A stretch of DNA of 34,973 nucleotides, taken from Bacillota bacterium. Lineage in GTDB: Bacteria > Bacillota > UBA4882 > UBA8346. Position 1 is the first letter of the stretch. Every line of letters starts with the position of its first letter. The position numbers and the translations under genes are program-made. Below the pieces are notes generated by a model that was not told where the DNA came from, ran no database searches, and was given only the letters and a program-made list of their open reading frames with translations. Location of the stretch: the NCBI GenBank assembly GCA_012728785.1, contig JAAYEK010000021.1, positions 1 through 34,973 on the forward strand. The letters run 5' to 3'. This document shows positions 1 through 20,782 of the stretch, in pieces.

Positions 1-78
1 GCGATGATCTATCTTTTGGGTGGGAAGCTGACTTTTGATTTCCAGAAAAATGATGCTTCTAAACACCATTTTGGTTAG
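1..78 (+). CDS. C-terminal end of an upstream protein (partial)
   Basis: An open frame enters from the left edge and stops at TAG 76-78. Its 25 visible residues end in alternating hydrophobic/polar order (GGKLTFDFQ) followed by a short polar tail. That alternation is compatible with the last strand of a beta-barrel and would fit the two barrel-like genes that follow, but it is too short to prove homology. It could also be a chance open frame. The tag stop is followed by 44 bases before the next gene. Confidence 0.3.
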   Translation, partial: AMIYLLGGKLTFDFQKNDASKHHFG

Positions 79-122
79 TTGATAGTCGGGTTACCCACAC
101 GATTTAGCGAAACGCCTTTTTT

Positions 123-821
123 ATGGTGTTAGTTTTTGGATTGTTTTTTGGATTAGCTTCAGCTAGCCGGGGGGAAGAGAAAGAAGAGGGTATGTACTTT
201 AGTATTTTGGGCGTAGAGAACAGTATTGGCGGAGATTTTAAAGGTACTGTTACCGGGGGATTTGTGGACAGTACAGTCTTAATTAGAATACCTGAGATTA
301 AAAACGGTAGTGGTTTTGGGATTCTAATCGGAGGTTATACCGAAAAATTGGCTGGGGAATTATATTATTCATGTTCAAAACATGATACTTCATTTAAGTT
401 TTATGACCTTAACTGTAATGGGTTTAATGATGGCGGAGCTGAAGATACTGTTTATTACCAAGATGGTGAATGTCAAGTATTTGGTGCTAATGCCAAGTGG
501 TTTTTTGCTAATTTATTTGATAGTAACTTTCGTTTTTTTGGACAATTAGGATTTTTTGTTCCTAAAATCTCCATGGAACATGGGGCTTATCAAGAGGATG
601 ATGTTGATGATACCGCGGATGTTTCTTTTACCGGTTATGGAGTGGATCTTGGTCTCGGAGTTATAATTCATCTACATCCCAAATGGGCTATCACCGGCTC
701 CTCCGTTTATCGGTATATTCGAATTAAAGAAGCCACCGCTTTTGGTGAAGATAGGATTCCATCGGATACTATGGTTGGGAGTGGCTGGAGTTATAGTGTT
801 GGCATAAATTATTATTTTTAA
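123..821 (+). CDS. Putative outer-membrane beta-barrel protein
   Basis: A 232-residue protein of no family I can name. The N-terminus is a hydrophobic stretch (about residues 1-15) ending in an Ala-Ser-Ala-like cleavage region, consistent with a signal peptide, but it lacks the usual basic n-region. The rest is rich in Gly, aromatic residues and alternating-polarity segments, and it ends in VGINYYF. A terminal aromatic residue after an alternating strand is typical of outer-membrane beta-barrels. No Shine-Dalgarno sequence is visible before ATG 123, and an in-frame TAG lies at 105-107, so the start is uncertain and the N-terminus may be damaged. The next gene begins 18 bases downstream and has the same architecture, suggesting co-transcription. 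Function is unknown; surface or porin-like roles are only inference. Confidence 0.6.
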   Translation: MVLVFGLFFGLASASRGEEKEEGMYFSILGVENSIGGDFKGTVTGGFVDSTVLIRIPEIKNGSGFGILIGGYTEKLAGELYYSCSKHDTSFKFYDLNCNGFNDGGAEDTVYYQDGECQVFGANAKWFFANLFDSNFRFFGQLGFFVPKISMEHGAYQEDDVDDTADVSFTGYGVDLGLGVIIHLHPKWAITGSSVYRYIRIKEATAFGEDRIPSDTMVGSGWSYSVGINYYF

Positions 822-839
822 TAATTTTGGGAGGGGCTA

Positions 840-1439
840 ATGTTACATAACTTAATGATTTCTTTTTTAATTATTATTCTTTCATTTGGATTTGTAGTTT
901 ATGATACCGCAATGGTTTTAGCTGAGGAAGGGGATCAAAAGTACTATTTTGCTTTAAAAGCCAATCATATTTGGTTTGATGGTGATGTTGAAGAACTGGA
1001 GAAAGACGTAGGCGGTGGGTTAATATTCGGGGCGACTAAAGATATATATACTTGTGAATTTAGTTATTCCTATTCGGAACATAATATAATTAACTCCAGT
1101 CCCACCTTGACTACGGAATTAGAATCATTAAATCTTAGCATAAAAGTTACCCCCAAGAGTTTATTGAAAAAACGATGCCAGCCTTATGGACTTATAGGGT
1201 ACGGGATTACTCGACTTTCAGTTGATGATTCGTTTGACCTAAAATATGAGGGGAAAGGGTTTCATTTGGGATTTGGCATGAATTGCAAGCTCAGTAATAA
1301 GATAGGCATTGATGGGTCAGTTGCTTACTATCGTTATGATATAAGTAAAGTGGAAATTATGGAAGTGGGAGTTCCGTTGGATGATGTAACATTGATCAAT
1401 ACCGTTGCTAGTTTAGGAATTAAGTTTTATTTCAAGTAA
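840..1439 (+). CDS. Putative outer-membrane beta-barrel protein (OmpA/porin-like size)
   Basis: A 199-residue protein preceded by a good ribosome-binding site (GGGAGGGG at 830-837). It has a hydrophobic N-terminal segment (about residues 5-28, ending VLAEEG) that reads as a signal peptide. The mature part has repeated Gly/aromatic amphipathic strands, for example YGLIGYGITRL and GFHLGFGMN, and ends in LGIKFYFK, resembling a barrel C-terminal strand. The size is near that of 8-stranded barrels. It follows the other barrel-like gene by 18 bases, and the two look like divergent members of one class rather than recent duplicates. The exact family is not recognised. The call rests on pattern rather than a diagnostic motif. 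Confidence 0.6.
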   Translation: MLHNLMISFLIIILSFGFVVYDTAMVLAEEGDQKYYFALKANHIWFDGDVEELEKDVGGGLIFGATKDIYTCEFSYSYSEHNIINSSPTLTTELESLNLSIKVTPKSLLKKRCQPYGLIGYGITRLSVDDSFDLKYEGKGFHLGFGMNCKLSNKIGIDGSVAYYRYDISKVEIMEVGVPLDDVTLINTVASLGIKFYFK

Positions 1440-2288: not shown

Positions 2289-2573
2289 ATGAGCGATTTG
2301 AAGCCGGAAACAGTTGGAAGTAAAGGTAAGGTATTGCTGTATGCCCTAAGTACCTGTATCTGGTGTCGAAAGACCAAGAATCTCCTGGACGAGCTGGGTG
2401 TCGCTTACGATTTCATCGATGTCGACTTATTGACTGGTGAGGATAGCCAAAAGATCCGACGGGAACAGGAGCTTTGGAACCCCAGTGGTTCATTTCCGAC
2501 ATTAGTGATTAATAATGCCAAGTGTATTATCGGATTTGAAGAAGACCAGATCCGGAAAGAATTCGGGAAATGA
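2289..2573 (+). CDS. Glutaredoxin/thioredoxin-like protein
   Basis: A 94-residue thioredoxin-fold protein. The active-site motif CIWC follows the first beta strand ([12 protein letters not shown]), and a conserved-looking FPTLVIN segment supplies the cis-proline of the fold. The C-terminal [10 protein letters not shown] helix matches glutaredoxin-like family ends. ATG 2289 is chosen over the in-frame TTG 2277 because GGAGG sits at 2279-2283. The stop overlaps the next start (ATGA), so translation is probably coupled to the ferredoxin:thioredoxin reductase-like gene. The natural inference is that this protein is the small thiol partner reduced by that enzyme, in the cytoplasm. Confidence 0.88.
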
Positions 2574-3085
2574 GTAAAAAGATGCAAATTACACCCGAAG
2601 AGTTGGAGCAGGCCTATCAAAAGTTACTGCAAGAGACAGAAACCGCCGGTTATCATCTCAACCCGGATCTGGAGTTTACCAAAGATTTGATCGAGTCTTT
2701 ACTGATCAATGAGGCAAGGTATGGATATCAGGCCTGTCCGTGTCGGCTGGCTTCCGGTAACAAAGAAGAAGATTTGGATATCATCTGTCCCTGCGATTAT
2801 CGGGACCCTGATCTAACTGAACATGCGGCTTGTTATTGCGCGTTATATGTATCGGGCAAAATTCATAAGGGTGAAGCGAAAGCAAAGCCGATTCCAGAAA
2901 GAAGACCGGGACGAGAGGAGCGACTAAAAAAAATGACTGCCAATTCAAACAGCGGCGAAATCAATAACCTGGCATATCCCGTTTGGCGTTGTAAGGTTTG
3001 CGGTTATTTGTCCGCCCGCAACGAGCCACCCGAGGTTTGCCCAATCTGTAAAGCTGAAAAGGAAAGGTTTGAACGGTTTTTATGA
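2570..3085 (+). CDS. Ferredoxin:thioredoxin reductase catalytic subunit fused to a rubredoxin domain
   Basis: A 171-residue protein. Residues 1-95 carry the ferredoxin:thioredoxin reductase catalytic pattern: C56-P-C58, C73-P-C75 and C88-Y-C90, with the flanking [10 protein letters not shown] and ACYCALYV typical of the family. These cysteines bind a 4Fe-4S cluster and supply the redox disulfide. A linker (about 96-135) joins a rubredoxin-like domain with C141-x2-C144 and C157-x2-C160, expected to bind one iron. In the family, electrons from ferredoxin reduce a partner thiol protein; the fused rubredoxin probably replaces or adds an electron donor (inference). The gene overlaps the glutaredoxin-like gene upstream and tag downstream by four bases each, so the three form one operon. 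Confidence 0.9.
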
Positions 3086-3702
3086 AAAACGGAGATTCCA
3101 AGGGATTGGTAAGGTGTGGCTGGGCGGGTAATGATCCGCTATACATCGAATACCACGATACCGAATGGGGGGTTCCGGTTACCGACGACCGAACTTTATT
3201 TGAGTTTCTAACTTTAGAAGGAGCCCAAGCCGGTTTAAGCTGGATTACGATTTTGAGGAAAAGAGAAAACTACCGCCAAGCCTTTGATAAATTTGAACCC
3301 CTAAAGGTGGCGGCTTATAACGAAGCCAAAATCAATCAATTAATTGATAATCCCGGAATCATCCGCAATCGGCGAAAAGTAGCAGCGGCTATCATCAATG
3401 CCCAGGCTTTTTTAAAGGTCCAAGCGGAATTCGGCAGTTTTGCCAAGTATCTGTGGAGTTTTGTTGATTACCAACCGATTCAGAATAATTGGGAGACCCT
3501 TAAAGATGTGCCGGCCCAGACTGACATTTCGCAGCTCCTAAGCGGGGACTTGCAGAAACGGGGGTTTAAATTTGTCGGGCCTACGATTTGTTACGCTTTA
3601 ATGCAAGCCATAGGGATGGTTAATGACCATACGTTGGACTGTTTCCGCCATACTGTGGTGAGAGATTTAGCCAGGAATACTGATATCTTAAACCGGATTT
3701 AA
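3082..3702 (+). CDS. tag: DNA-3-methyladenine glycosylase I
   Basis: A 206-residue enzyme that excises 3-methyladenine from alkylated DNA in base-excision repair. The N-terminal [13 protein letters not shown] and [10 protein letters not shown] blocks are diagnostic. C12, H25, H183 and C187 match the zinc-binding set of the Tag family, and E46 matches the substrate-contacting glutamate of the E. coli enzyme. [20 protein letters not shown] is the usual C-terminal core. It starts at ATG 3082, overlapping the reductase stop by four bases. The link with a thiol-redox pair is unusual and may mean a shared response to oxidative or alkylating damage, or only convenient co-transcription. Confidence 0.95.
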
Positions 3703-3761
3703 AGAAATGAATTTTGGCTGGTATTTAACTATTATTTAACGATTATTTTGATAGACTTTCA

Positions 3762-3790
3762 TTGACTGATAGTCAGTCAGTGGATATAAT
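3762..3790 (+). promoter_or_regulatory. Promoter with embedded palindromic operator for the TetR-exporter operon
   Basis: A near-consensus sigma-A promoter: TTGACT (3762-3767), 17-base spacer, TATAAT (3785-3790). Inside it lies a perfect inverted repeat, TGACTGA-TAG-TCAGTCA (3763-3779), covering the -35 box and part of the spacer. Operators of this shape are typical for TetR regulators, so binding by the regulator encoded immediately downstream would block polymerase. Autorepression is inference from position. Confidence 0.85.
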
Positions 3791-3810
3791 AAAAGAAAAG
3801 GGAGGCAATA

Positions 3811-4440
3811 ATGGCGCGAGTTACTAAAGATCCGGAAGAACGCAAACATGAAATTATGCTAGCCGCTTTTCAACTGTTCGCTACCAAGGGGTTTGAGGAG
3901 ACGGCGGTCAGCGATATTGTTAAAAAAGTCGGCGTGGCCCAAGGGTTGTTTTATTACTATTTTAAATCTAAGGAAGAAGTCTTGGAAGCTGTTATGGAAC
4001 ATTACACCAAAGAATTGGTGTGCAAGATTAAGCAGATAACCATGGATAGCTCTAATAACACTCTCGAGAAAATGCAAAGAATCTTCGATGCTTTTTTCGA
4101 TTTTGGAGAGTATGACGACCGGATGATTAGTTTCGCCCATAGTCCCGAGAATGCCGATTTGCACCAGCGTTTTATGTTCCAAACCATCAAAAAAGTGCTG
4201 CCGGACTTGATAATGTTGGTCAAGGAAGGGATTGACGAAGGGATATTTGTAACAGAATACCCGGAGGATACGGCTTCAATTTTGCTTTTAGGAATTGGGA
4301 CTTACATTCATTCAATCGATGGTTTCTTCGAACAAAAAGAGGTCTTCATGACAAAAAGGAAGTCCTTCTTGGAAATTATCAGCAAGACGCTGGGGGTGAA
4401 AATAGGATTTAGAAGTCAGGAGACAGGAGACAGTAGCTGA
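3811..4440 (+). CDS. TetR/AcrR-family transcriptional regulator
   Basis: A 209-residue regulator with the standard N-terminal helix-turn-helix (about residues 10-60: FATKGFEETAVSDIVKKVGV then GLFYYYFKSKEEVL), followed by an all-helical ligand-binding domain. The ribosome-binding site GGAGG is at 3801-3805. The operator palindrome lies 32-48 bases upstream of the start. The stop is 35 bases before the ABC ATPase, so it very likely controls the exporter operon as well as itself. The last residues (RSQETGDSS) come from a low-complexity AGTCAGGAGACAGG-type repeat, so the natural C-terminus has been replaced or extended by repeat DNA. The ligand is unknown. Confidence 0.93.
   Translation: MARVTKDPEERKHEIMLAAFQLFATKGFEETAVSDIVKKVGVAQGLFYYYFKSKEEVLEAVMEHYTKELVCKIKQITMDSSNNTLEKMQRIFDAFFDFGEYDDRMISFAHSPENADLHQRFMFQTIKKVLPDLIMLVKEGIDEGIFVTEYPEDTASILLLGIGTYIHSIDGFFEQKEVFMTKRKSFLEIISKTLGVKIGFRSQETGDSS
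4411..4437 (+). repeat. AGTCAG/ACAG low-complexity repeat at the tetR 3' end
   Basis: The purine-rich stretch AGTCAGGAGACAGGAGACAG forms the last codons of tetR. Related sequence recurs at 11561-11636, 17017-17054, 25949-25979 and 27221-27239. Confidence 0.6.
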
Positions 4441-4475: not shown

Positions 4476-5186
4476 GTGGAACGGACTAATCTCTTTAAAT
4501 TAGAGAATGTCGTCAAGGAATATGATATGGGCGAGGTTAAGGTTGTGGCTTTAAAAGAGGCCAATTTTAATCTGTTCAAAGGTGAGCTAGTGGTAGTGCT
4601 GGGGCCCAGCGGTTCCGGGAAAAGCACTTTATTGAACATCATGGGCGGGATGGACACACCGACTAGAGGCCGTGTTTATTGCGGCGCAACGGATATTGCC
4701 GCTTTGAACGAAGGGCAACTGACTTCTTTCCGCCGTCATCAGGTAGGGTTCGTCTTTCAATTCTATAATTTAATGCCCAACCTTACCGTTAAGGAAAATG
4801 TCGAATTGGCCACGGAGATCTCTGAAAATCCCCTGGATGTGGTAGCTGTTTTAGAACAAGTAGGACTGGAAAAAAGGGCTAACCATTTTCCGGCCCAGTT
4901 GAGCGGCGGAGAACAACAGCGGGTGGCCATCGCCAGGGCCGTAGCCAAGAACCCGGAGGTACTTTTATGCGATGAACCCACCGGCGCTTTGGATCACCTT
5001 ACCGGAATCAAAGTGCTCCGATTGTTATGTGATATTAATCAAAGTACCGGAAAGACAGTGATTATCATTACCCATAATCAGCCTATTGCCGGAATTGCCG
5101 ACCGGGTAATCAAAATGAGCAGTGGCGAAATTGTCGAGATTATTGAAAACCGGCAACGGATTGAACCCGAAAAAGTTGAGTGGTAA
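4476..5186 (+). CDS. ABC transporter ATP-binding protein (MacB/LolD type)
   Basis: A 236-residue nucleotide-binding subunit. Walker A is G43-PSGSGKS-T51, the ABC signature LSGGEQQR is at 142-149, and Walker B is [12 protein letters not shown] with D166-E167. The switch histidine lies in IITHN. The [20 protein letters not shown]-loop region is characteristic of the MacB/LolD/FtsE-related group, which powers mechanotransmission permeases rather than classical importers. The start is GTG 4476. It follows tetR by 35 bases and precedes the permease by 31, so it is the ATPase of this export operon, acting at the cytoplasmic face of the inner membrane. Confidence 0.93.
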
Positions 5187-5217
5187 AGGGTTTGCCTAGC
5201 GGAGGTATGAGGATCTA

Positions 5218-7584
5218 ATGAAAAAACTCAATATTATGCTTATTCGGGAAATCGCTAAGGCCAAGGGGCAATTCATCGCCGCTGCGGCGGTGATTATGGC
5301 TGGGATTGTCATGTTTGCCGCCACTTATCTATCATACCGTAATCTAAAAAATTCCCTTGAACTTTATTACGATCAGTACCGATTCCTGGATTATTTCGCT
5401 GAAGCGAGCTACATACCGGAATATATTGTGGATCGTGTCAAAGGGCTTGAAGGAGTCGAGGCAGCTTACGGCCGGATTAGTGTCGATGTCGGGGCTGATG
5501 TTGGCGAAGAACGGCGGATCACCTTAAGGATCATCTCCTTGCCGGAACGCGGAACCCCAGCCTTGAACCGGATAACGGTCATCTCCGGCGGCTATTTTAA
5601 CGATCAAGCCGAAAATTCCTGTCTGATCAATCAACAGTTCGCCGAGTATAATCAGTTGGCTAAAGGCGGGATCATCAAAGCTATCATCGACAAACGAGTC
5701 TATGAACTTAAAATCGATGGGATAGTAAGAAGCCCGGAGTTCATTTATGCGATGAAATCGGCCGAGTCCTTATTTTCGGCGGCGGAAAACTTCGGCGTCA
5801 TTTATATCAAAGAATCAACCGCCTTCGAACTGTTCGGTTTCAATCACTGTTATAACCAGTTACATATTAGGTTTACCGCAAAAGCGGACCGCCCAAAGAT
5901 AATCAATCGGATTGAACGGATGCTGGTTCCATACGGGTTCATCAGTGGGGTTGAACGCAAGGACCAGCTAAGCAACAACATGATTCAAAATGAACTTTCC
6001 GAGTTGCAAAATATGGCGATAATGTTCCCAATCCTATTCCTGTCGGTGGCGGCGATGATTATTTACAACATGTTGCGTCGGATCATCAATAACCAACGGA
6101 CTCAAATCGGGGTTCTGAAAGCTTTCGGGTACTCCAACCAGCGAATTGTCGGCCATTATTTAGGGTATGCGGCATTAATCGGGTTGACCGGGGCTTTAGT
6201 AGGTGCTCTTCTGGGTTGGTATACCAGTACGGTTTTGACGGCCATGTATACCAAAATGTACAACATTCCGGTGTTGCAAAGGGTAATTTATGGCGAGGTT
6301 TTTCTGATTGGCCCCGGAATCAGCATGGTTGTTTGTTTGATTGCCGGTTTTAATTCGGCCCGGAAAATATTAAAGATCGAGCCGGCCCAGGCCATGCGTT
6401 CCGAAGCGCCCAAAGCCGGGCGGCGGATCTTTTTGGATGGGATCGGTTACATCTGGGACCGGTTGACTTTCGGTTGGAAAATGAGTCTCCGAAATATCTT
6501 TCGCAGCAGGCAACGGGCTTTACTAACTCTGTTGGGTATGGCCTTTACAATGATGTTTTTTATTATCTCCCTCTATTTTTTAGATGCGGTCGGTTATCTT
6601 TTGGAGCAACATTTCTTCGTTTTTCAACAGCAGGACTATAAAGTGTCTTTTTCCGATCCAGCCTCGTTTTACGACGCTTTGGAATTGAACCGGATCAAAG
6701 GAGTTAACAAGGCCGAGCCGGTCTTGGAAATACCGGCCCAGTTGATTAATGGCTGGATGAAAGAAGACACGATGGTAATCGGTTTGACCCGGCGGAATAC
6801 TTTTTATCGATTGACTGACGAAAATAAAGCAACAGTTCCGGTTCCGGCCAAGGGTATTTTAATCGCTGCCAGATTAGCTGAAAAACTGCGGGTAACCAAA
6901 GGAGAGACCATCACCTTAAAGACCTATCAAGGAAGAATCTTGGAAAAAGATATTAAAGTTGCGGGCGTAGTTAAGCAGTATGCCGGGGCCAACTGTTACA
7001 TGGACTTGGAGGAACTGGGCGGCTTATTGGAGGAAGGTCGGTTTGCCAATGGGGCGCTGCTCGGGATCGAAAACGGTATGGATCGGATTGTAAGGAAAGA
7101 GATCTTTAAAATTCCCGGAGTCGAAACCCTGGAGTCCCGGGTCAACTCATATCATGCTTTTCTGCAATTTATGGAATTTATCGATACCTTCATTATCCTG
7201 ATGCTTGTTTTCGGTTCAATAATGGGTTTTGCGATTGTCTTCAATACAACGGTAATCAATATTACCGAACGCCGCCGGGAACTGGCGTCGTTAAAAGTAT
7301 TGGGTTATACGGCCGGGGAAATCGAGCTGACCATCTTTCGGGAAAATGTTTGTTTGGGATTGTTGGCAATCCCCCCCGGGTTTTTACTGGGGAGAATCAT
7401 GTCCGGGCTGCTTTCTAAGATGTTCGGCGGCGAAATGATAACTTTGGAGGTTTTCATTTATCCGAAGACCTACTTGATTACTGCTGTCAGCGCGTTAATT
7501 TTTATTATCACGGCTCAGTTGGCCAATAGAAAGAAGATTACCGGTTTGAATATGGTCGAGGTTTTGAAAAACCGCGAAGGATGA
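5218..7584 (+). CDS. ABC transporter permease with two FtsX domains
   Basis: A 788-residue membrane protein with an N-terminal transmembrane helix (about 16-36), a large extracytoplasmic domain, then a first FtsX-type domain with helices near 270-390 (RTQIGVLKAFGYSNQRIVGHYLGY is the usual coupling loop). A second extracytoplasmic domain follows, and a second FtsX-type domain near 650-785 (RRRELASLKVLGYTAGEIEL). This duplicated arrangement matches the large permeases paired with LolD/MacB-type ATPases and often with a membrane-fusion protein. Substrates in such systems range from lipids and peptides to antibiotics; nothing in the sequence fixes it here. The adaptor gene starts 14 bases after its stop. 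Confidence 0.92.
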   Translation: MKKLNIMLIREIAKAKGQFIAAAAVIMAGIVMFAATYLSYRNLKNSLELYYDQYRFLDYFAEASYIPEYIVDRVKGLEGVEAAYGRISVDVGADVGEERRITLRIISLPERGTPALNRITVISGGYFNDQAENSCLINQQFAEYNQLAKGGIIKAIIDKRVYELKIDGIVRSPEFIYAMKSAESLFSAAENFGVIYIKESTAFELFGFNHCYNQLHIRFTAKADRPKIINRIERMLVPYGFISGVERKDQLSNNMIQNELSELQNMAIMFPILFLSVAAMIIYNMLRRIINNQRTQIGVLKAFGYSNQRIVGHYLGYAALIGLTGALVGALLGWYTSTVLTAMYTKMYNIPVLQRVIYGEVFLIGPGISMVVCLIAGFNSARKILKIEPAQAMRSEAPKAGRRIFLDGIGYIWDRLTFGWKMSLRNIFRSRQRALLTLLGMAFTMMFFIISLYFLDAVGYLLEQHFFVFQQQDYKVSFSDPASFYDALELNRIKGVNKAEPVLEIPAQLINGWMKEDTMVIGLTRRNTFYRLTDENKATVPVPAKGILIAARLAEKLRVTKGETITLKTYQGRILEKDIKVAGVVKQYAGANCYMDLEELGGLLEEGRFANGALLGIENGMDRIVRKEIFKIPGVETLESRVNSYHAFLQFMEFIDTFIILMLVFGSIMGFAIVFNTTVINITERRRELASLKVLGYTAGEIELTIFRENVCLGLLAIPPGFLLGRIMSGLLSKMFGGEMITLEVFIYPKTYLITAVSALIFIITAQLANRKKITGLNMVEVLKNREG

Positions 7585-7597
7585 GGTGTTTAGTAGT

Positions 7598-8725
7598 ATG
7601 TTTAAAAACAAATTGATGGTAGGATTATCAATTGGGTTGGCCATATTTGCTGTAGGATACGTATTCAACCATTTTCAGGCAACGGAAGTTCAGGTAAGGA
7701 CCGTTCTCCGGGGTGAATTGGCCGAATACATCGAGGTTCGGGGAAAGGTCGAGATGGATCGGAAAGAATTAATCTCCAGTAAATGGTCGGGCGTAGTTGG
7801 AGATATTTTAGTTAGGGAAGGAAACATGGTCCAGCCGGACACAGCTTTATTAAGCCTGAAAGTGCTAAATTCGGGCAACGCCGCCGCGGAGTTGGAAAAG
7901 GCCCGTATTTCCAAGCAGGCCGCTTTACGGGATTTTAACTATAAAAATGAAAAGCTGGAGAAATATCGGAAGCTTTACCGTGAAGGGATTGTCTCCGAGG
8001 AGGAAGTTAAGGACTTGGAAATGGCGGTAACCGCAGCGGAAGCGGCCCGTGTTGCAGCCGAACAACAATATAAAATCGTGGCCGATAATTTTCTGGTCAA
8101 TAGCAGCCTGGGACTGGAATCGGGGAATGGCCGGTTAACGGTCCGCGCTGGGACTACCGGTAAAATTTTGGCTAAATATGTTGATAGCGGGGTTAGTGTA
8201 GTATCCGGAGCGCCTTTGTTCGAAGTGGAACGGGAGAATTCCGCTTATTACGTCAGGGCCGATGTGTTGACTGACGACGCGGTTAAATTAAAACTAGGCC
8301 AAACCGCTATTCTCACGGGCGAGGCCTTGGATGATGCGGAATTGCCGGGAAAAATCGTTTATATTGCTCCGAAGGCGGAAACCACCCTCTCATCCCTGGG
8401 CGTGGAGCAACAAAGGGTGGAAGTTAGGATTAGTTACTCATACCAGGATCTACCCCTCAGACTCGGCTATGGAGTTGATGTAAAAATAGTGGCTGCGCTG
8501 GAACCGGATGCTATTTTCGTACCGGAAAAGGCGGTATTTGAGAAGGAAGGCATTGATCACGTTTTGGCAATCGAGGAGAATAAGTTAAAATTATTGCCGG
8601 TTAAAACCGGGATTGAAAATGATGATTATATTCAAATACTTGAGGGTTTGCGGGAAGGGGACAAAATAGCGGTTGATCCGGACAATAAATTGAAACCGGG
8701 GATGAGGGTCAAAATTAGGCGCTAG
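7598..8725 (+). CDS. Membrane-fusion (periplasmic adaptor) protein, HlyD/MacA-like
   Basis: A 375-residue adaptor from ATG 7598, preferred to GTG 7586 because GAGGTG lies at about 7583-7588. One N-terminal membrane anchor (about residues 5-22) is followed by a split lipoyl/biotinyl-like hairpin region (ISSKWSGVVGDILVREGNMV and later GTTGKILAKYV). An alpha-helical coiled hairpin about residues 88-155 comes between the two halves, then beta-barrel and membrane-proximal domains (GYGVDVKIVAALEPDAIFVP). In MacAB-type pumps such proteins link the permease to an outer-membrane channel; no TolC-like gene is present here. It is the last gene of the operon, 40 bases before a hairpin terminator. Confidence 0.92.
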   Translation: MFKNKLMVGLSIGLAIFAVGYVFNHFQATEVQVRTVLRGELAEYIEVRGKVEMDRKELISSKWSGVVGDILVREGNMVQPDTALLSLKVLNSGNAAAELEKARISKQAALRDFNYKNEKLEKYRKLYREGIVSEEEVKDLEMAVTAAEAARVAAEQQYKIVADNFLVNSSLGLESGNGRLTVRAGTTGKILAKYVDSGVSVVSGAPLFEVERENSAYYVRADVLTDDAVKLKLGQTAILTGEALDDAELPGKIVYIAPKAETTLSSLGVEQQRVEVRISYSYQDLPLRLGYGVDVKIVAALEPDAIFVPEKAVFEKEGIDHVLAIEENKLKLLPVKTGIENDDYIQILEGLREGDKIAVDPDNKLKPGMRVKIRR

Positions 8726-9247: not shown

Positions 9248-9653
9248 TATCATGAAAAAAAAGATTAACGCCATCCAGTTTAGTTTAGGAAGAATCAACA
9301 AATATAGATCCTTAGCTTTGGAAGAATTTATCGATGACAATGACGCTAAGGATATAGTAGCCCATAATCTTTTTTTAGCATTGCAAAACGTGATCGATAT
9401 CGGGACCCACATAATTGCCGACGCTAATTGGGAGGAGCCTAACTTTTTGGCGGAGATTCCGGGGATCTTGGCTCGAGAAGGTGTTATCACCGCTGAATTG
9501 GTTAAACCCTTAAAAGGGATGATTGGTCTTAGGAATTTGATTGCCCACGAATATGGAGACCTTGATTTTATTACGATCTTTAGAATTGTTCAAGAGGATC
9601 TAGGTGATCTAACCCGGTTCTTAGAGGCGGTAATCAAATATTGCAAATTGTGA
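9234..9653 (+). CDS. hepT: HepT-like ribonuclease toxin
   Basis: A 139-residue all-helical HEPN protein. The catalytic and modification motif R-x4-H-x-Y is present as R100-NLIA-H105-E-Y107. HEPN proteins of this sort cut RNA; the tyrosine is the AMPylation target of MntA in characterised pairs. ATG 9234 is chosen because GGGAGAAG sits at 9221-9228; ATG 9252 is an alternative without such a site. The start lies inside the antitoxin gene. Its stop at 9651-9653 is 17 bases before a 21-bp tandem repeat whose degenerate edge may reach the last codons. Confidence 0.9.
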   Translation: MVSISIMKKKINAIQFSLGRINKYRSLALEEFIDDNDAKDIVAHNLFLALQNVIDIGTHIIADANWEEPNFLAEIPGILAREGVITAELVKPLKGMIGLRNLIAHEYGDLDFITIFRIVQEDLGDLTRFLEAVIKYCKL

Positions 9654-9669
9654 GAAGGAGTCCTCGAAA

Positions 9670-9774
9670 TTCTCCCATGAAGACTCAAATTTCCCCGATG
9701 TAACACCAAAGTTGGCCAATGAAACACCAACGTTCCCCGATGTAACACCAAAGTTGGTCAATGAAGCACCAACC
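9670..9774. repeat. 21-bp tandem repeat, five units
   Basis: Five consecutive 21-base units start at 9670, 9691, 9712, 9733 and 9754. Units 2 and 4 are identical and units 3 and 5 differ at three positions, so the array alternates with a 42-base super-period. On the minus strand the unit reads as AACTTTGGTGTTACATCGGGG and one frame stays open as a heptapeptide repeat (NFGVTSG, NVGVSLA). The stop codon of rqcH (9758-9760) lies within unit 5. A strongly degenerate sixth unit may extend leftward to 9649. There are no spacers between units, so this is not a CRISPR array. Confidence 0.88.
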
Positions 9775-11527
9775 CCAAAGCTTCCAAAAGTATCCGGTCC
9801 GGTGTGATAATAGCGGTCTTGAAGTTGTCGTAAATCACAAAGCCGGGTTTGGCCGCCGGGGGTTTTTTCACGTATTTCCTTTGGGTATAATCCACCGGTA
9901 CCTTGGTGGACTCCCGGGCTTTTGAGAAATAAACCGCTAGTTGACAGGCGAAGTTCAAGGTCTCGTCGTCCACGGCAGTCCCTGGGTTGGGGCGGAGGAT
10001 CACGTGGGAACCGGGGATTTTTTGAGTATGGAGCCACCAGTCGGTCGGATCGGCGATTTTAAAAGTGAGCCGATCGTTTTGGAGATTGTTCCTCCCTACT
10101 AGTAAGATATGTCCGGCGGGGGTCTTAAATTGTCTCGGTTCCGCCGGGGCCTCTTTCTTTTTAGGAAAACTATTGCGTTTTACCGGTTTGTTGGTGGCCA
10201 GATCCCATTCTTCCTGAATTAGTTTTAAATCCGCAGGGTTGATGGAGCTAAGGATCATGGCTTCGATACTTTCCAGGTAATCTAGGCTTTCTTTGGTCTT
10301 GGTAATTTGGGCGGCGATAGCCAACTGGCTTTTCTTGGCCTTTTGATACTTTTTAAAATATTGTTGGGCATTTTCCCAAACCGAGAGGGCCGGGTTAAGC
10401 GGTATTTCCATTTCAGAATTATTCGGATCGTAATGATTGGTTAAGCGGGCTATCTTACTTCCCTTTTGGATGTGAGAGCCGTAGGAAGTCAGTAATTCTC
10501 CCATAATCCGCCATTCTTCACCTCGGTCGGCTTGGTCGGCTTCCTTTTCTTGTTTTCCAAGTTTGATCCGGGTTTTTTCCAGTACCACACCGACTTTTTT
10601 CAACAAATTATTCTTTAATTCCTGAAAGGCCTCGTTTGTTTGTCGGTTTCCAAAAATTTCGGCCACCGCTTTATTGAGGGAGTGGACTGGTTTGACGGTC
10701 AGCCCCATCTCAGGATGGCGAATTGGTAAGGCTGAACAGTCAATGGGCTTGCCTTCGGTATTATTAAGGGAACATGGTTCGAATTTACCGTTAGTCATAG
10801 AATCTGCCATTTTAGAGAAGGAATCGTGGAGTGTGGCATAATCCTTTTCATTATATTGACTAAGTGGTAGATCCGGTTTTAAACCAGCCTCCTTGGATAT
10901 TTCATCTGCCATCAGTTTAGAAAGGCCGTACCAATGTTTGAGCAGGAATTTAGCAGGGGTAACTTCCGGTGGGACTTGAGCGGCCAGGTTAATAAAGTCG
11001 GACCGGTTGAGTGTCACCGGTTGCCAGCGGCCTTGAGTGGAAGGGAATTCGTATTGGAGATCAATTGCCAGTTCCCGTTCGCTACGGGGACCGCCGCTTT
11101 TACGCCAAAGATCGATGATTATTCCTTGTTGATCGGTAATGATCAGATTGGAGCTCTTCCCGGTTAGTTCCAGATAAATATTTTTTTCATTTATTCCCAC
11201 CAGTTCTTCGTAAACCTCAAAGGTTAGCCGGATGATTCTTTCAAAAGGTATCGGGGCAACCTTAATCAGCTTGGCGCCGGAGAAATGTTTCCGGAGCGAT
11301 AAGCCAAAGGGAGAGGGTTTAGGTAGGGTTTCCGTCTTGCTATCGAAAAGATGAAGCCTGGCATAGCGGGAATTCAACGAGAATAGGAGTTTAAAAGAAT
11401 GGCCCATTCCGTAACAAGACAAGCTAAATTCATCGGAACGGGTCTGGTTGACCCGATCGACCTTGACTGGGAGTAAAGTATTAATTTCAGCGGCAACGGC
11501 TGCAAACAAAGGGGCGTCCAAGGGCAT
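9758..11527 (-). CDS. rqcH: RqcH/Rqc2 family ribosome quality-control protein (NFACT)
   Basis: A 589-residue NFACT protein. In bacteria RqcH binds stalled 50S subunits carrying peptidyl-tRNA, recruits tRNA-Ala and adds C-terminal alanine tails that mark the nascent chain for proteolysis (ClpXP among others; clpX is also in this window). The N-terminal NFACT-N domain is about residues 1-180, with coiled-coil segments in the middle (around 290-450) and the NFACT-R domain in the last 120 (GRNNLQNDRLTFKIADPTDW, HTQKIPGSHVIL). The D-R pair conserved in Bacillus RqcH is E96-R97 here. The start ATG has GGAGG seven bases upstream. The gene converges with hepT and its end is overlapped by a 21-bp repeat. 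Older annotations call this family fibronectin-binding. Confidence 0.93.
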   Translation of the reverse strand: MPLDAPLFAAVAAEINTLLPVKVDRVNQTRSDEFSLSCYGMGHSFKLLFSLNSRYARLHLFDSKTETLPKPSPFGLSLRKHFSGAKLIKVAPIPFERIIRLTFEVYEELVGINEKNIYLELTGKSSNLIITDQQGIIIDLWRKSGGPRSERELAIDLQYEFPSTQGRWQPVTLNRSDFINLAAQVPPEVTPAKFLLKHWYGLSKLMADEISKEAGLKPDLPLSQYNEKDYATLHDSFSKMADSMTNGKFEPCSLNNTEGKPIDCSALPIRHPEMGLTVKPVHSLNKAVAEIFGNRQTNEAFQELKNNLLKKVGVVLEKTRIKLGKQEKEADQADRGEEWRIMGELLTSYGSHIQKGSKIARLTNHYDPNNSEMEIPLNPALSVWENAQQYFKKYQKAKKSQLAIAAQITKTKESLDYLESIEAMILSSINPADLKLIQEEWDLATNKPVKRNSFPKKKEAPAEPRQFKTPAGHILLVGRNNLQNDRLTFKIADPTDWWLHTQKIPGSHVILRPNPGTAVDDETLNFACQLAVYFSKARESTKVPVDYTQRKYVKKPPAAKPGFVIYDNFKTAIITPDRILLEALGLVLH

Positions 11528-11889: not shown

Positions 11890-14607
11890 ATGAATAATTG
11901 GTTTAATTATGGTTCCGAACAGGTAATCAAGGCGTTAGCCACTAATCTGCCACAAGGATTGACCTCCTCCGAAGCGAAGAGGCGTCTGGAGAGGGTGGGC
12001 CATAACCAACTGAACGCCGTTTTAAAAATCTCACCATGGCGGATTTTTTTAGGTCAGTTTTCCGATTTCATGGTCTTGGTTTTAGTCGGAGCAGCCATAG
12101 TCTCCGGGATTATCGGGGAAAAAGAGGATGCTTTAACAATCATCGCAATCATAATTATTAACGCGCTGTTAGGTTTTTTCCAGGAATACCGGGCGGAAAA
12201 GTCATTAGAGGCCCTTAAAGAATTAACTTCACCCTTAGCTCATGTCCGGCGGGATGGAAAACTTCTAAAAGTTCCCGCTAAAGAATTGGTCCCCGGCGAT
12301 ATCATGGTCTTGGAAAGCGGCGACCGGATCCCGGCCGATGGGCGAGTAGTTGAAGTAATCGATTTGGAAGTGAATGAGGCCACCTTAACCGGAGAATCCA
12401 TGGCAGTCTCCAAAATAACGGAGGTCCTCCATGAACCCCAATCATCCTTGGGCGACCGGCGGAATATGGTTTTTGCCGGAACGGTTGTGACTGGTGGTCG
12501 GGGTCAGGCAGTGGTTTCCGCTACCGGGATGAAAACGGAGATCGGAAAAATAGCCGGAATGATTAGTCAAGTGGAGGAAGAAACCACTCCGCTCCAAAAA
12601 CGACTGGAACAATTGGGCCAATGGCTAGTCGTCATTTGTCTTGGGGTTTGCGCTATGGTGGGGACCATGGGAGTACTCCGGGGGGAACCACCCCGGCAAA
12701 TGTTTTTGGCCGCAGTTAGCTTAGCGGTAGCAGCCATCCCCGAGGGGTTGCCGGCGATTGTCACTATCGCGTTGGCTATTGGGGTCCAAAAGATGATTAA
12801 AAGGAAGGCTATTATCAGAAAATTACCGGCAGTAGAAACTCTAGGTTGCGCTACAGTAATCTGTTCTGATAAAACCGGTACATTAACCCGGAACAAGTTA
12901 ACCGTTACCAAAGTCTGGGCCGGGGGAGAAGAATATGCCGTACCCGGAACAAAGGAACAAGTTAAAAATGATACCGAACTTCCGGCTCCAATGAAACGAT
13001 TGTTGGAGATCGGGACATTATGTAATAATGCTCAATTGGAGCCGGAAGGAAAAGATTTTACGGTAATCGGCGATCCAACCGAGGGAGCGATTTTAGCGGC
13101 TACCGCCACTTATAACATAACCACTAATGAAATTAGCCGGGAGTATCGACGCGAAGGGGAGATCCCATTCAGTTCGGAACGGAAACGGATGGGAGTCTGG
13201 GTCAAAGATGGGAATGGTAACCGATGGTTAATGGTAAAAGGTGCTGCCGATGTTATTTTGGAACGTTCTACGCAGCTACATAATAATGATGCTCTGGTTG
13301 CTCTCGACACCACCTTGAAGTTGAAAATCAAGCAACAGATTGACACCTGGGGCGCTGAAGCATTAAGAGTATTGGCTTTTGCTTACCGTCCGACCCTTCC
13401 TGGGGAAAGTAAGGAAAGTAAGGCAAGGGATTGGGAACAAGAGTTAATCTTCTCCGGTTTGATGGGAATGACTGATCCGCCCCGGCCGGAATCAAGCTTC
13501 GCAATTGAAAAGTCAAGGAGGGCTGGGATCGAAGTCAAGATGATCACCGGTGACTATCCCCGTACTGCGGCGGCTATTGGGAAACAAATCTCACTTTTAA
13601 GACCCCAAGGCAAAATTATTACCGGTGCTGAGTTGGACCGACTTTCCGAGGCGGAACTGGGGAAGGTTATTGCGGATATTGATGTTTTTGCCCGAGTCTC
13701 TCCCCATCATAAATTGAGAGTAGTCAGGGCTTTAAAAAGAAATGGAGCGGTTGTGGCGATGACCGGCGATGGAGTCAACGACGCTCCGGCCATTAAAGAG
13801 TCGGATATTGGGGTAGCGATGGGGATTAGCGGTACGGACGTAACCAAGGAAGCTTCAGCCATGGTCATTGCTGATGATAATTTCGCCTCTATTGTAGCTG
13901 CAGTGGAAGAAGGACGGACCATTTATGATAATATCCGTAAATTTATCAGGTATTTATTAAGCTGTAATATTGGGGAGATTTTAACAATGTGCGGTGGAAT
14001 TTTGTTGGGTTTGCCATTTCCGTTATTACCAATCCAGATTCTCTGGGTCAATCTGGTGACCGATGGTTTACCGGCCATCGCCTTAGGGATGGAACCGGCC
14101 GAACCGGGTACTATGTCCCGTCCACCCCGGCCACGGGAAGAGGGCATTTTCAGTAGAGGTTTAGGATGGAAGATCGCTTTACAAGGATTTTTAATCGGTA
14201 GCGCCACTTTGGTGGTTTACATCATTCAGTTGCAGGGAGGAAGTAGTTTAGCTGCGGCTAGAACAGCGTCATTTGCGACATTGGTCTTTGCACAACTTGG
14301 CTTTGTTTTTCAGTGCCGGTCCGAGAACCGTAGTTTAATGGAGAATAATCCATTTGAAAACTTATATTTGTTGGGGGCGGTCTCTATATCCACGCTGATG
14401 CAAGTCGGGGTGATTTATCTGCCCTGGTTGCAAAGGGTTTTTTACACCACTCCTTTGAACGGCGGCGATTGGCTCTTGGTAGGATTAGCCGTAGGTTCGG
14501 TGACGTTCTGCGCTGATCTGGTCTTTAGGTTTAGGAAGGTTATTCGGAAACATTTGGCTATCTTTCGCTGGAATACGCATAGGGACCGATGCCCGGTGGT
14601 AAAATAA
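11890..14607 (+). CDS. Calcium-transporting P-type ATPase (P2A, SERCA/PMR1-like)
   Basis: A 905-residue cation pump that exports Ca2+ from the cytoplasm at the cost of ATP. The actuator motif TGES ends at residue 170, the phosphorylation motif is D327-KTGTLT, and the hinge motif TGDGVNDAPA follows. AAIPEGLPA in M4, SCNIGE in M5 and WVNLVTDGLPA in M6 carry the residues that bind calcium in SERCA-type pumps, including the M5 asparagine and glutamate of site I. That favours Ca2+ over Na+/K+ or Mg2+. The length is normal and no motif is missing. The ribosome-binding site is GGAGGGG. ytfI follows after 17 bases, so these genes are probably in one transcript ending at 15757. Confidence 0.94.
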   Translation: MNNWFNYGSEQVIKALATNLPQGLTSSEAKRRLERVGHNQLNAVLKISPWRIFLGQFSDFMVLVLVGAAIVSGIIGEKEDALTIIAIIIINALLGFFQEYRAEKSLEALKELTSPLAHVRRDGKLLKVPAKELVPGDIMVLESGDRIPADGRVVEVIDLEVNEATLTGESMAVSKITEVLHEPQSSLGDRRNMVFAGTVVTGGRGQAVVSATGMKTEIGKIAGMISQVEEETTPLQKRLEQLGQWLVVICLGVCAMVGTMGVLRGEPPRQMFLAAVSLAVAAIPEGLPAIVTIALAIGVQKMIKRKAIIRKLPAVETLGCATVICSDKTGTLTRNKLTVTKVWAGGEEYAVPGTKEQVKNDTELPAPMKRLLEIGTLCNNAQLEPEGKDFTVIGDPTEGAILAATATYNITTNEISREYRREGEIPFSSERKRMGVWVKDGNGNRWLMVKGAADVILERSTQLHNNDALVALDTTLKLKIKQQIDTWGAEALRVLAFAYRPTLPGESKESKARDWEQELIFSGLMGMTDPPRPESSFAIEKSRRAGIEVKMITGDYPRTAAAIGKQISLLRPQGKIITGAELDRLSEAELGKVIADIDVFARVSPHHKLRVVRALKRNGAVVAMTGDGVNDAPAIKESDIGVAMGISGTDVTKEASAMVIADDNFASIVAAVEEGRTIYDNIRKFIRYLLSCNIGEILTMCGGILLGLPFPLLPIQILWVNLVTDGLPAIALGMEPAEPGTMSRPPRPREEGIFSRGLGWKIALQGFLIGSATLVVYIIQLQGGSSLAAARTASFATLVFAQLGFVFQCRSENRSLMENNPFENLYLLGAVSISTLMQVGVIYLPWLQRVFYTTPLNGGDWLLVGLAVGSVTFCADLVFRFRKVIRKHLAIFRWNTHRDRCPVVK

Positions 14608-14624
14608 GCTATCGGGGTGACTTT

Positions 14625-15311
14625 GTGGTTGAAATCGCACTTTTTATCGGAACAATCTGTTTTTTTTCCTTTTTACCGGTACAATTCAGGTTTTATTACC
14701 AAAAAATCGCCTGGGACGATACCTTGGTAATGGAGATGACCTTTTTAGGCGGTTTACTCAAACGCAAACGCCAGGTGAGTCTGGTTAAACCAACTTTTAA
14801 AGGAGTAAAAGTTAGGGAAAAAAATTCGGGAAAATGGGTATTTATTACTAATCAGCAAGTAGTCAAAAAGATCTCCCCTTATCAAGGTAATTCCCGCGGC
14901 TTGCGGGAATTTTTCCACCGTTACCATCATTTCGGTTTAGGGGTAACCTTGTTAAGTTATTTTCTGCCGGCCCGTTACCATCGCTGGTTATTGGTGGTGG
15001 AGAACTTGGAAAAAAGAGGCGTCTTTCACCGATTTATCTGGATTACTAGATTAGGGTTGGGGCAACCGGCGGCTACGGCGATACTTTATGGGTTAACCTG
15101 GGGTTTAAAATCCAGTTTGGTCCAGACCCTTAACCAAAAATTTCGTTTTGTCCAAAAACCGGACCTTAAAGTAATCGCTGATTATCGATGTTTAAGATTT
15201 GATACTCGCTTCGATTGTATATTCCGTATTAAACTAGGCTATATTATTATTGCTTCTTTCCTAGCGTATTGGCGTCATCGTATGATGAAGGGAGGTGTCG
15301 GAATTGAATGA
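14625..15311 (+). CDS. ytfI: DUF2953 protein, YtfI-like
   Basis: About 228 residues with an N-terminal transmembrane segment (IALFIGTICFFSFLPVQF) and a DUF2953-like body rich in basic and aromatic residues (HRWLLVVENLEKRGVF). In Bacillus the DUF2953 gene ytfI lies immediately upstream of ytfJ and is spore-linked; the same order is seen here, which supports the name more than the sequence does. GTG 14625 is preferred, with GGGGTGA at 14614-14620; an in-frame ATG at 14589 would overlap the P-ATPase gene and lacks a good site. The end overlaps the YtfJ gene by eight bases. The role is unknown, probably in the forespore membrane. Confidence 0.78.
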   Translation: MVEIALFIGTICFFSFLPVQFRFYYQKIAWDDTLVMEMTFLGGLLKRKRQVSLVKPTFKGVKVREKNSGKWVFITNQQVVKKISPYQGNSRGLREFFHRYHHFGLGVTLLSYFLPARYHRWLLVVENLEKRGVFHRFIWITRLGLGQPAATAILYGLTWGLKSSLVQTLNQKFRFVQKPDLKVIADYRCLRFDTRFDCIFRIKLGYIIIASFLAYWRHRMMKGGVGIE

Positions 15312-15732
15312 TCATCCGATAGAGGGTTTAATGAAAACCGCCATGGAAAATATAAAGGAAATGGTCGATGTTAACACAATTTTGGGAGATCCGGTGGAGA
15401 CCCCGGATGGGAGCGTGATTGTACCTATTTCCAGAGTTGTTTTTGGATTTGCCGCGGGTGGTAGTGAGTTTGAGACTATTGGGGTTAAGCCAAAGGAAAA
15501 AGAGAAGGACCGCAATCAAGAACTAACCGCCGAAGCTGATAAACATCCCTTTGGGGGTGGTAGCGGAGCCGGAATCACTATTAATCCGGTAGCTTTTTTA
15601 GTGGTTGGTAAAGAACAAGTCAAGCTGCTGCCGGTTGAAAGTAATGTCTTGGTTGACCGGATCCTGGACTCCGCTCCGCAATTACTCGATAAAATCCAAA
15701 GTATGATCAGTCCTAGGCAAGAACTTCATTGA
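15304..15732 (+). CDS. ytfJ: GerW-family sporulation protein YtfJ
   Basis: About 142 residues, strongly conserved with YtfJ: DHPIEGLMKTAMENIKEM, VDVNTILGDPVETPDGS and the GFAAGGSEF block, then a GGGSGAGITINPVAFLVV core. The family is made in the forespore and affects spore germination. TTG 15304 is chosen as start because GGGAGGTG (15290-15297) has proper spacing and the product then begins MNDHPI like its relatives; GTG 15295 lies inside the binding site. It ends five bases before a stem-loop terminator. Confidence 0.93.
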   Translation: MNDHPIEGLMKTAMENIKEMVDVNTILGDPVETPDGSVIVPISRVVFGFAAGGSEFETIGVKPKEKEKDRNQELTAEADKHPFGGGSGAGITINPVAFLVVGKEQVKLLPVESNVLVDRILDSAPQLLDKIQSMISPRQELH

Positions 15733-20697: not shown

Positions 20698-20782
20698 AGC
20701 TTTTTATTTCAAAAGAAGGGTTTAAATTTGCATATTTCGGCAGATACTATTGGTAAAATTTCCGGAGAAAGGAGTCCAAATA

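Follow-up and report, generated by a model that had tools for sequence, protein, structure and literature searches.

Two adjacent genes at the edge of a contig raise the question whether a spore-forming member of the Bacillota builds an outer membrane, and whether the proteins that these genes encode reside in it as β-barrels. The stretch of DNA analysed here (34,973 nucleotides, referred to as the window) begins at the edge of contig G000:C248 and probably belongs near UBA8346, described as a novel Firmicutes lineage (PMC12993600); MAG UBA8347 (G008, L064) is of the same family. The answer reached below, to which we assign a probability of about 0.9, is that P0001 and P0002 are small, probably eight-stranded integral outer-membrane β-barrels (i.e., of the size class of the OmpA transmembrane domain, OmpX and OmpW) in an endospore-forming member of the Bacillota with an LPS-containing outer membrane. 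The features of the window are given below, with G001 denoting the one further genome of this genus that the searches covered.

1–78, + strand: 3′ end of a cut ORF, 25 codons, broken off by the contig edge
123–821, + strand: P0001, predicted small outer-membrane barrel, 232 aa, ending in VGINYYF, with an EF-hand-like stretch at residues 95–108
840–1439, + strand: P0002, predicted small outer-membrane barrel, 199 aa, ending in LGIKFYFK, with a hydrophobic signal-like N-terminus
1922–2149, − strand: remnant of a LOG/lysine-decarboxylase-like gene, its middle part missing compared with the intact gene beside the barrel pair of G001
4476–8725, + strand: ABC ATPase, FtsX/MacB-type permease and RND/HlyD-type adaptor, the last being the MacA-like gene (7586–8725)
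14589–15311, + strand: DUF2953 (ytfI-like) ORF
15295–15732, + strand: Spore_YtfJ ORF, 104.7 bits
20750–22447, + strand: LonB-like ORF (AAA and Lon_C), starting 19.3 kb after P0002 ends

Both barrel ORFs were complete and lay in tandem within the opening 1.4 kb, separated by a gap of 18 bases. P0002 is preceded by a ribosome site (GGGAGGGG at 829–836) and has a hydrophobic N-terminus, as judged by inspection. The start of P0001 is uncertain, given a short hydrophobic N-terminus without positive charge (likewise by inspection), an in-frame TAG at 108–110, and no clear ribosome site upstream. The region around this start (60–125) lies beside a T-run, 0.1 kb from the contig edge, and the start may have changed or the assembly may be at fault here. 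No similarity could be established between the 25 codons of the edge ORF and P0007, a barrel-like gene located before the corresponding pair in G001. Further downstream, a 95-aa coiled-coil-like ORF with repeated segments (1611–1898) showed weak, below-cut-off similarity to DUF16.

An earlier note, made from the letters of this DNA, had proposed two barrel-type proteins with barrel-like C-termini, and complete ORFs, profile matches, paralogy and barrel-like models all bear this out. Specifically, the PF13505 profile (OMP_b-brl; Pfam cut-off of 28.7 bits) matched P0002 with 55.4 bits (E 1.1e-14), above the cut-off, and P0001 with 25.4 bits (E 1.8e-5), below it, and the two proteins proved paralogous, BLASTP aligning them at E 4e-8 with identity in 42 of 177 columns. 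When the alternating hydrophobicity of each protein was compared with that of 1000 shuffles, only 3 shuffles reached the score of P0002 and 13 that of its G001 orthologue P0005, while none of five control proteins of the window exceeded their own shuffles. The alternation of P0001 and of its G001 orthologue P0006 was not clearly above chance, with 88 and 107 of the 1000 shuffles reaching the respective scores. Since both the PF13505 score and the alternation are clear for P0002 and less so for P0001, the predicted barrel is well founded for P0002 standing alone, whereas for P0001 it leans on the paralogy with P0002. A C-terminal F was present in six of seven aligned relatives, P0001 included, and P0002 (ending in FYFK) carries its F one residue before the end. 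At E ≤ 1, no Pfam family matched P0006, and no OmpA-type peptidoglycan-binding domain was found in P0001 or P0002, in which the end of the barrel is the end of the protein. A PDB sequence search with the barrel profile returned nothing at E ≤ 1 except a chance-level potassium channel (E 0.8).

The distribution of PF13505 was also examined among 199 sampled genomes of the phylum (two samples were taken as the same for these counts, and their handles agree where both are listed). Over-cut-off matches occurred in 22 of the 199 genomes, and every one of these 22 also had an Omp85 match, which was found in 49 of the 199. At E ≤ 0.001, 38 genomes were positive for PF13505 and 36 of them had Omp85; the other two (G039 and G123) belong to one genus, and both of their scores were under the cut-off. 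The genome of the window itself yielded PF13505 matches at five places (E ≤ 0.001), two of them over the cut-off.

AlphaFold2 models, for which the two window proteins served as the only alignment rows, were of low confidence for P0002 (pLDDT 53.9, pTM 0.50) as well as P0001 (pLDDT 40.2, pTM 0.35). The P0002 model contains nine strands, the first of which (residues 22–30) falls in the low-confidence signal region, and in the eight later strands short turns alternate with longer loops. The P0001 model contains ten strand pieces, which become eight only when two broken pairs are merged. Closed barrels of 8 to 10 strands had been put forward as the structural check on the earlier note, and the folds indeed came out barrel-like (eight strands after the signal region for P0002, ten pieces for P0001), albeit in poor models. 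A Foldseek search of the PDB with the P0002 model gave no match at E ≤ 0.001, its best matches being outer-membrane barrels at E 0.015 or worse, with two mutarotases among the best 50. With VIA-align, the designed transmembrane barrel 8uzl was the top match of both P0002 (Z 12.4, rmsd 2.2, 121 aligned) and P0001 (Z 10.9, rmsd 3.1, 110 aligned). Membrane barrels made up all of the best 50 rows for P0001 and 47 of the best 50 for P0002, the other three being the soluble barrels 5btu, 6ohh and 1nqn (Z 7.7 to 7.1). As far as such models can tell, the fold comparisons support a membrane barrel and leave the number of strands unproven.

The earlier note had named BamA, LptD and lipid A genes as a check, and the gene content of the genome (a 296-contig draft, 99.4% complete with 1.7% estimated contamination) was examined accordingly. 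Contig C111 carries genes for TamB, a sigma factor, a 215-aa protein without assignment, a BamA-type Omp85, a 430-aa protein without assignment, two OmpH/Skp proteins (with a 288-aa protein without assignment between them), LpxD, LptF/G, the 715-aa protein P0008, LptC and LptA. The Omp85 scored 140 bits and has three POTRA stretches, and it reached 213.8 bits on the NCBIfam BamA equivalog model, under the cut-off of 297.15; in one paper, the presence of genuine BamA in diderm Firmicutes is disputed (PMC8871954). LpxD was over its NCBIfam cut-off, and LptA, LptC and LptF/G were recognised by Pfam. A second contig, C21, carries LpxC, FabZ, LpxA and LptB, all four exceeding an NCBIfam cut-off, together with an LpxI-like protein (over the Pfam but under the NCBIfam cut-off), an LptA-like protein and a second LptF/G, and both LptF/G proteins were under their NCBIfam cut-offs. 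The search of this genome for lipid A and Lpt genes covered LpxA, LpxC, LpxD, LpxI, LptA, LptB, LptC, LptD and LptF/G. A BamA-type gene and lipid A genes, on which the earlier note had made its proposal depend, were therefore found, and the genome combines a BamA-type Omp85 with lipid A synthesis and Lpt transport, i.e., the gene set by which an LPS-diderm is recognised here.

Further genes of envelope interest were noted in the same genome. Directly after the Omp85 gene, the 430-aa protein (L003:14251–15543) is β-alternating and has counterparts of 39–65% identity in all but one of the seven named MAGs compared from this family; it had no Pfam, NCBIfam or PDB match and may be a partner of Omp85 or another barrel. 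On contig C296, a patatin-like phospholipase is fused to an Omp85-type barrel (L002:1345–3567). A search for SLH domains, as in an OmpM-type tether, yielded four places in two ORFs, neither of which was obviously OmpM. On contig C128, a protein of 216 aa (L111:1408–2058) combines a single SLH domain with a coiled-coil-like middle part and a hydrophobic segment at its C-terminal end, and could link layers of the envelope to one another.

Sporulation genes were also present. Spo0A_C matched at two places (125.2 and 110.2 bits) and SpoIVA matched with 379.8 bits, the pair of genes taken here to mark an endospore former; SpoIVA was found in 27 of 29 genomes (this one and 28 relatives). Within the window, the DUF2953 and YtfJ ORFs lie within the 16 kb of the barrels over which the earlier note had placed its spore genes, whereas the LonB-like ORF starts only at 20750. 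The MacA-like adaptor had been counted as a sign of a diderm and does pass TIGR01730 (128.1 bits over 94.9), but this family is not confined to diderms, and MacA-like adaptors exist in monoderm Bacillota too, so the gene is not diagnostic. The proposed diderm endospore former is nonetheless supported at the level of genes by the Omp85, Lpx and Lpt genes along with Spo0A, SpoIVA and YtfJ.

Three other explanations of the pair were weighed. P0001 and P0002 might be soluble periplasmic or extracellular meander barrels of an avidin- or lipocalin-like kind, to which the low confidence of the models, the three soluble barrels among the best VIA-align rows of P0002 and the two mutarotase rows of Foldseek lend some room; this is very improbable given the F that is the last or penultimate residue of all seven aligned relatives, the Pfam match to an outer-membrane barrel family, and the predominance of membrane barrels among the best rows of both fold searches. 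Still somewhat less probable is a horizontal transfer from a Gram-negative donor into a monoderm host, in which the pair would be useless or play another role. The local AT-richness that would suit such a transfer is real (GC of 0.381 for P0001 and 0.347 for P0002 vs. 0.439 for positions 1451–34973), and the distribution of the genes is narrow, since a four-sequence barrel profile found relatives in 5 of 29 genomes (this one included, all of family f1); P0002 alone as query was positive in 2 of 61 (this one included). A scan of genome contigs with P0002 found none. However, both genes have orthologues in G001 with their order kept, P0006 (68% identical to P0001) and P0005 (50% identical to P0002), preceded by P0007 and followed by a LOG-type gene; the LOG remnant that the window keeps beside its own pair, set against this intact neighbour, supports a conserved gene order. 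As the G001 pair has a GC of 0.443 and 0.446, AT-richness is no fixed property of these genes and makes no good case for recent import, contrary to what the earlier note had considered. Moreover, dN is low against saturated dS for P0001/P0006 (0.22 vs. 1.87) and for P0002/P0005 (0.39 vs. 1.84), indicating purifying selection on both genes. Conserved gene order, purifying selection and the GC of the G001 pair led us to reject an acquired island, and with the Omp85, Lpx and Lpt genes of the host genome added, the transfer is largely refuted.

The least probable explanation is that the outer-membrane genes came into the draft as contamination during binning, in which case the barrels would be β-proteins secreted by a monoderm spore former. 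The genome is a draft in many contigs with some estimated contamination, and C111 and C21 are contigs other than that of the window. Against this, Omp85 was found in all 29 genomes, and its identity to the present protein drops with kinship, from 70% in the same genus to 47–54% in the same family and 34–43% in the same class. Most C111 genes also occurred within the fetched flank of Omp85 in the seven named MAGs of the family. In an Omp85 tree built from 21 of 33 loci, with several inner branches modestly supported, this genome fell among Bacillota MAGs, with the Halanaerobiales as the nearest group in the sample that has cultured named members and a Synergistes row also in that part. The presence of Omp85 in every genome with over-cut-off PF13505 matches points the same way. 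On the kinship gradient, the 29 of 29 count, the flanking genes and the tree, binning contamination was rejected, and Omp85 in 29 of 29 genomes together with SpoIVA in 27 of 29 argues against both contamination and recent import.

Other barrel-like or related proteins were observed elsewhere. P0007 of G001 had no Pfam match at E ≤ 1 and reached an alternation score matched by 15 of 1000 shuffles. A distant barrel relative is located, in two further genera of this family, near a gene which we take to be asparagine-synthase-like (L103:7132–7836 and 9605–11509; L105:1636–2439 and 2397–4364), and in L103 repeated short, presumably transposase-like ORFs lie between the two. A 309-aa secreted-type protein that looks β-rich and ends in F (L103:5985–6914) adjoins the barrel relative of G007, and small barrels may thus tend to cluster together.

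Taking P0001 and P0002 as outer-membrane barrels, they would be exported by Sec, escorted by OmpH/Skp chaperones and inserted by the BamA-type Omp85 via their aromatic C-terminal strand, which would leave the long loops outside. They could then act as surface-loop display proteins and not as porins. Display appears likelier than transport because of the predicted topology of long loops and short turns, and because an eight-stranded barrel, as established for OmpA and OmpX, leaves too little room for a general pore. In P0001, the second loop contains an EF-hand-like D-x-N-x-N-G-x-x-D stretch (residues 95–108) that is conserved in P0006 and absent from the other five aligned relatives (P0002, P0005 and three more distant ones). 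This pattern, which was picked after the sequence had been seen, occurred in 12 of 20000 and 2 of 20000 shuffles of the two P0001 orthologues. It is possible, though on balance doubtful, that this surface loop binds calcium, which would stabilise the loop or bridge it to LPS or polysaccharide.

Compared with the small outer-membrane barrels of PF13505 (the OmpA transmembrane domain, OmpX/Ail, OmpW and OprH), the two proteins are alike in size and in the terminal aromatic strand, and P0002 additionally in the strand count of its model and in its Pfam match. They differ from OmpA in the absence of its C-terminal peptidoglycan-binding domain, P0001 differs in the long second loop with the EF-hand-like stretch, and the P0001/P0002 type is confined to one Bacillota family among the genomes searched (61 in one search, 29 in another). 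In fold, the barrels seem ordinary, and they are new only as a lineage-restricted sequence family.

The C111 cluster also bears on how LPS would reach the outer leaflet. PF04453 (the LptD barrel) had no match in this genome, which means little since the model picked out only E. coli and Caulobacter from 14 controls. Situated between LptF/G and LptC/LptA, P0008 (L003:7650–9797) has a weakly OstA-type N-terminus (18.1 on LptD_N, under the cut-off of 20.4), and LptD_N matched six of seven P0008 orthologues at E ≤ 0.01. A seven-sequence P0008 profile matched the N-terminal part to LptD in the PDB (7omm, E 2.1e-4; 8h1r, E 2.1e-3), whereas a single-sequence PDB search returned nothing. The alternation of residues 190–715 was far above chance (0 of 300 shuffles). 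A nearly complete P0008 was present in six of the seven named MAGs; in the seventh (L064) no counterpart was found, though LptF/G, LptC and LptA were. Halanaerobacter and MAG UBA5420 likewise have N-terminal matches close to Omp85. P0008 is thus a divergent LptD candidate, useful but unproven.

The literature on this point is divided. As far as the accessible texts go, no clear LptD/E was reported in Negativicutes and Halanaerobiales (Antunes et al. 2016, PMC5007114), LptD was detected in Veillonella outside the outer-membrane cluster (2017, PMC5491611), unlike the candidate inside the cluster here, and lptD was stated in 2022 never to have been found in atypical diderm genomes (PMC8871954). 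No in-cluster LptD was seen in the papers found on LptD, Negativicutes and Halanaerobiales, most subscription papers excepted. The cluster of Halanaerobacter jeridensis shares with C111 LpxD, LptF/G, LptA and TamB near Omp85 as well as an N-terminal P0008 match, but the Omp85 proteins of the Halanaerobiales are only 26–31% identical to the one found here. The broader proposal, that this uncultured endospore-forming family has an LPS outer membrane with its own in-cluster LptD (LptF/G–LptD–LptC–LptA) and family-restricted small barrels, of which one has a surface loop that binds calcium, stands at somewhat under even odds. An in-cluster LptD, if true, would run contrary to the survey without lptD in any atypical diderm, as given in its accessible part (PMC8871954), and the candidate bears on the published disagreement over the placement of LPS in the outer leaflet.

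Finally, the combination of endospores and an LPS outer membrane in one bacterium is already known, if uncommon. According to the accessible parts of the sources, Acetonema longum is a diderm endospore former (PMC7985256), Limnochorda pilosa is a 'Gram-negative spore-former' by a title cited in PMC11456536 and PMC11448272, and, as PMC11456536 relates of Taib et al. 2020, an outer-membrane gene cluster was reported from 46 genomes of uncultured Limnochordia. A literature search on Hydrogenispora and the outer membrane gave, judged by titles, nothing on its envelope. Like the genome studied here, Acetonema longum (Negativicutes) and Limnochorda pilosa (Limnochordia) have genes for an LPS outer membrane and for sporulation; the present lineage differs in being an uncultured family. 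Such bacteria are central to the dispute on whether the ancestor of the Bacillota had two membranes, and what is added here is an uncultured family that has kept both sets of genes.
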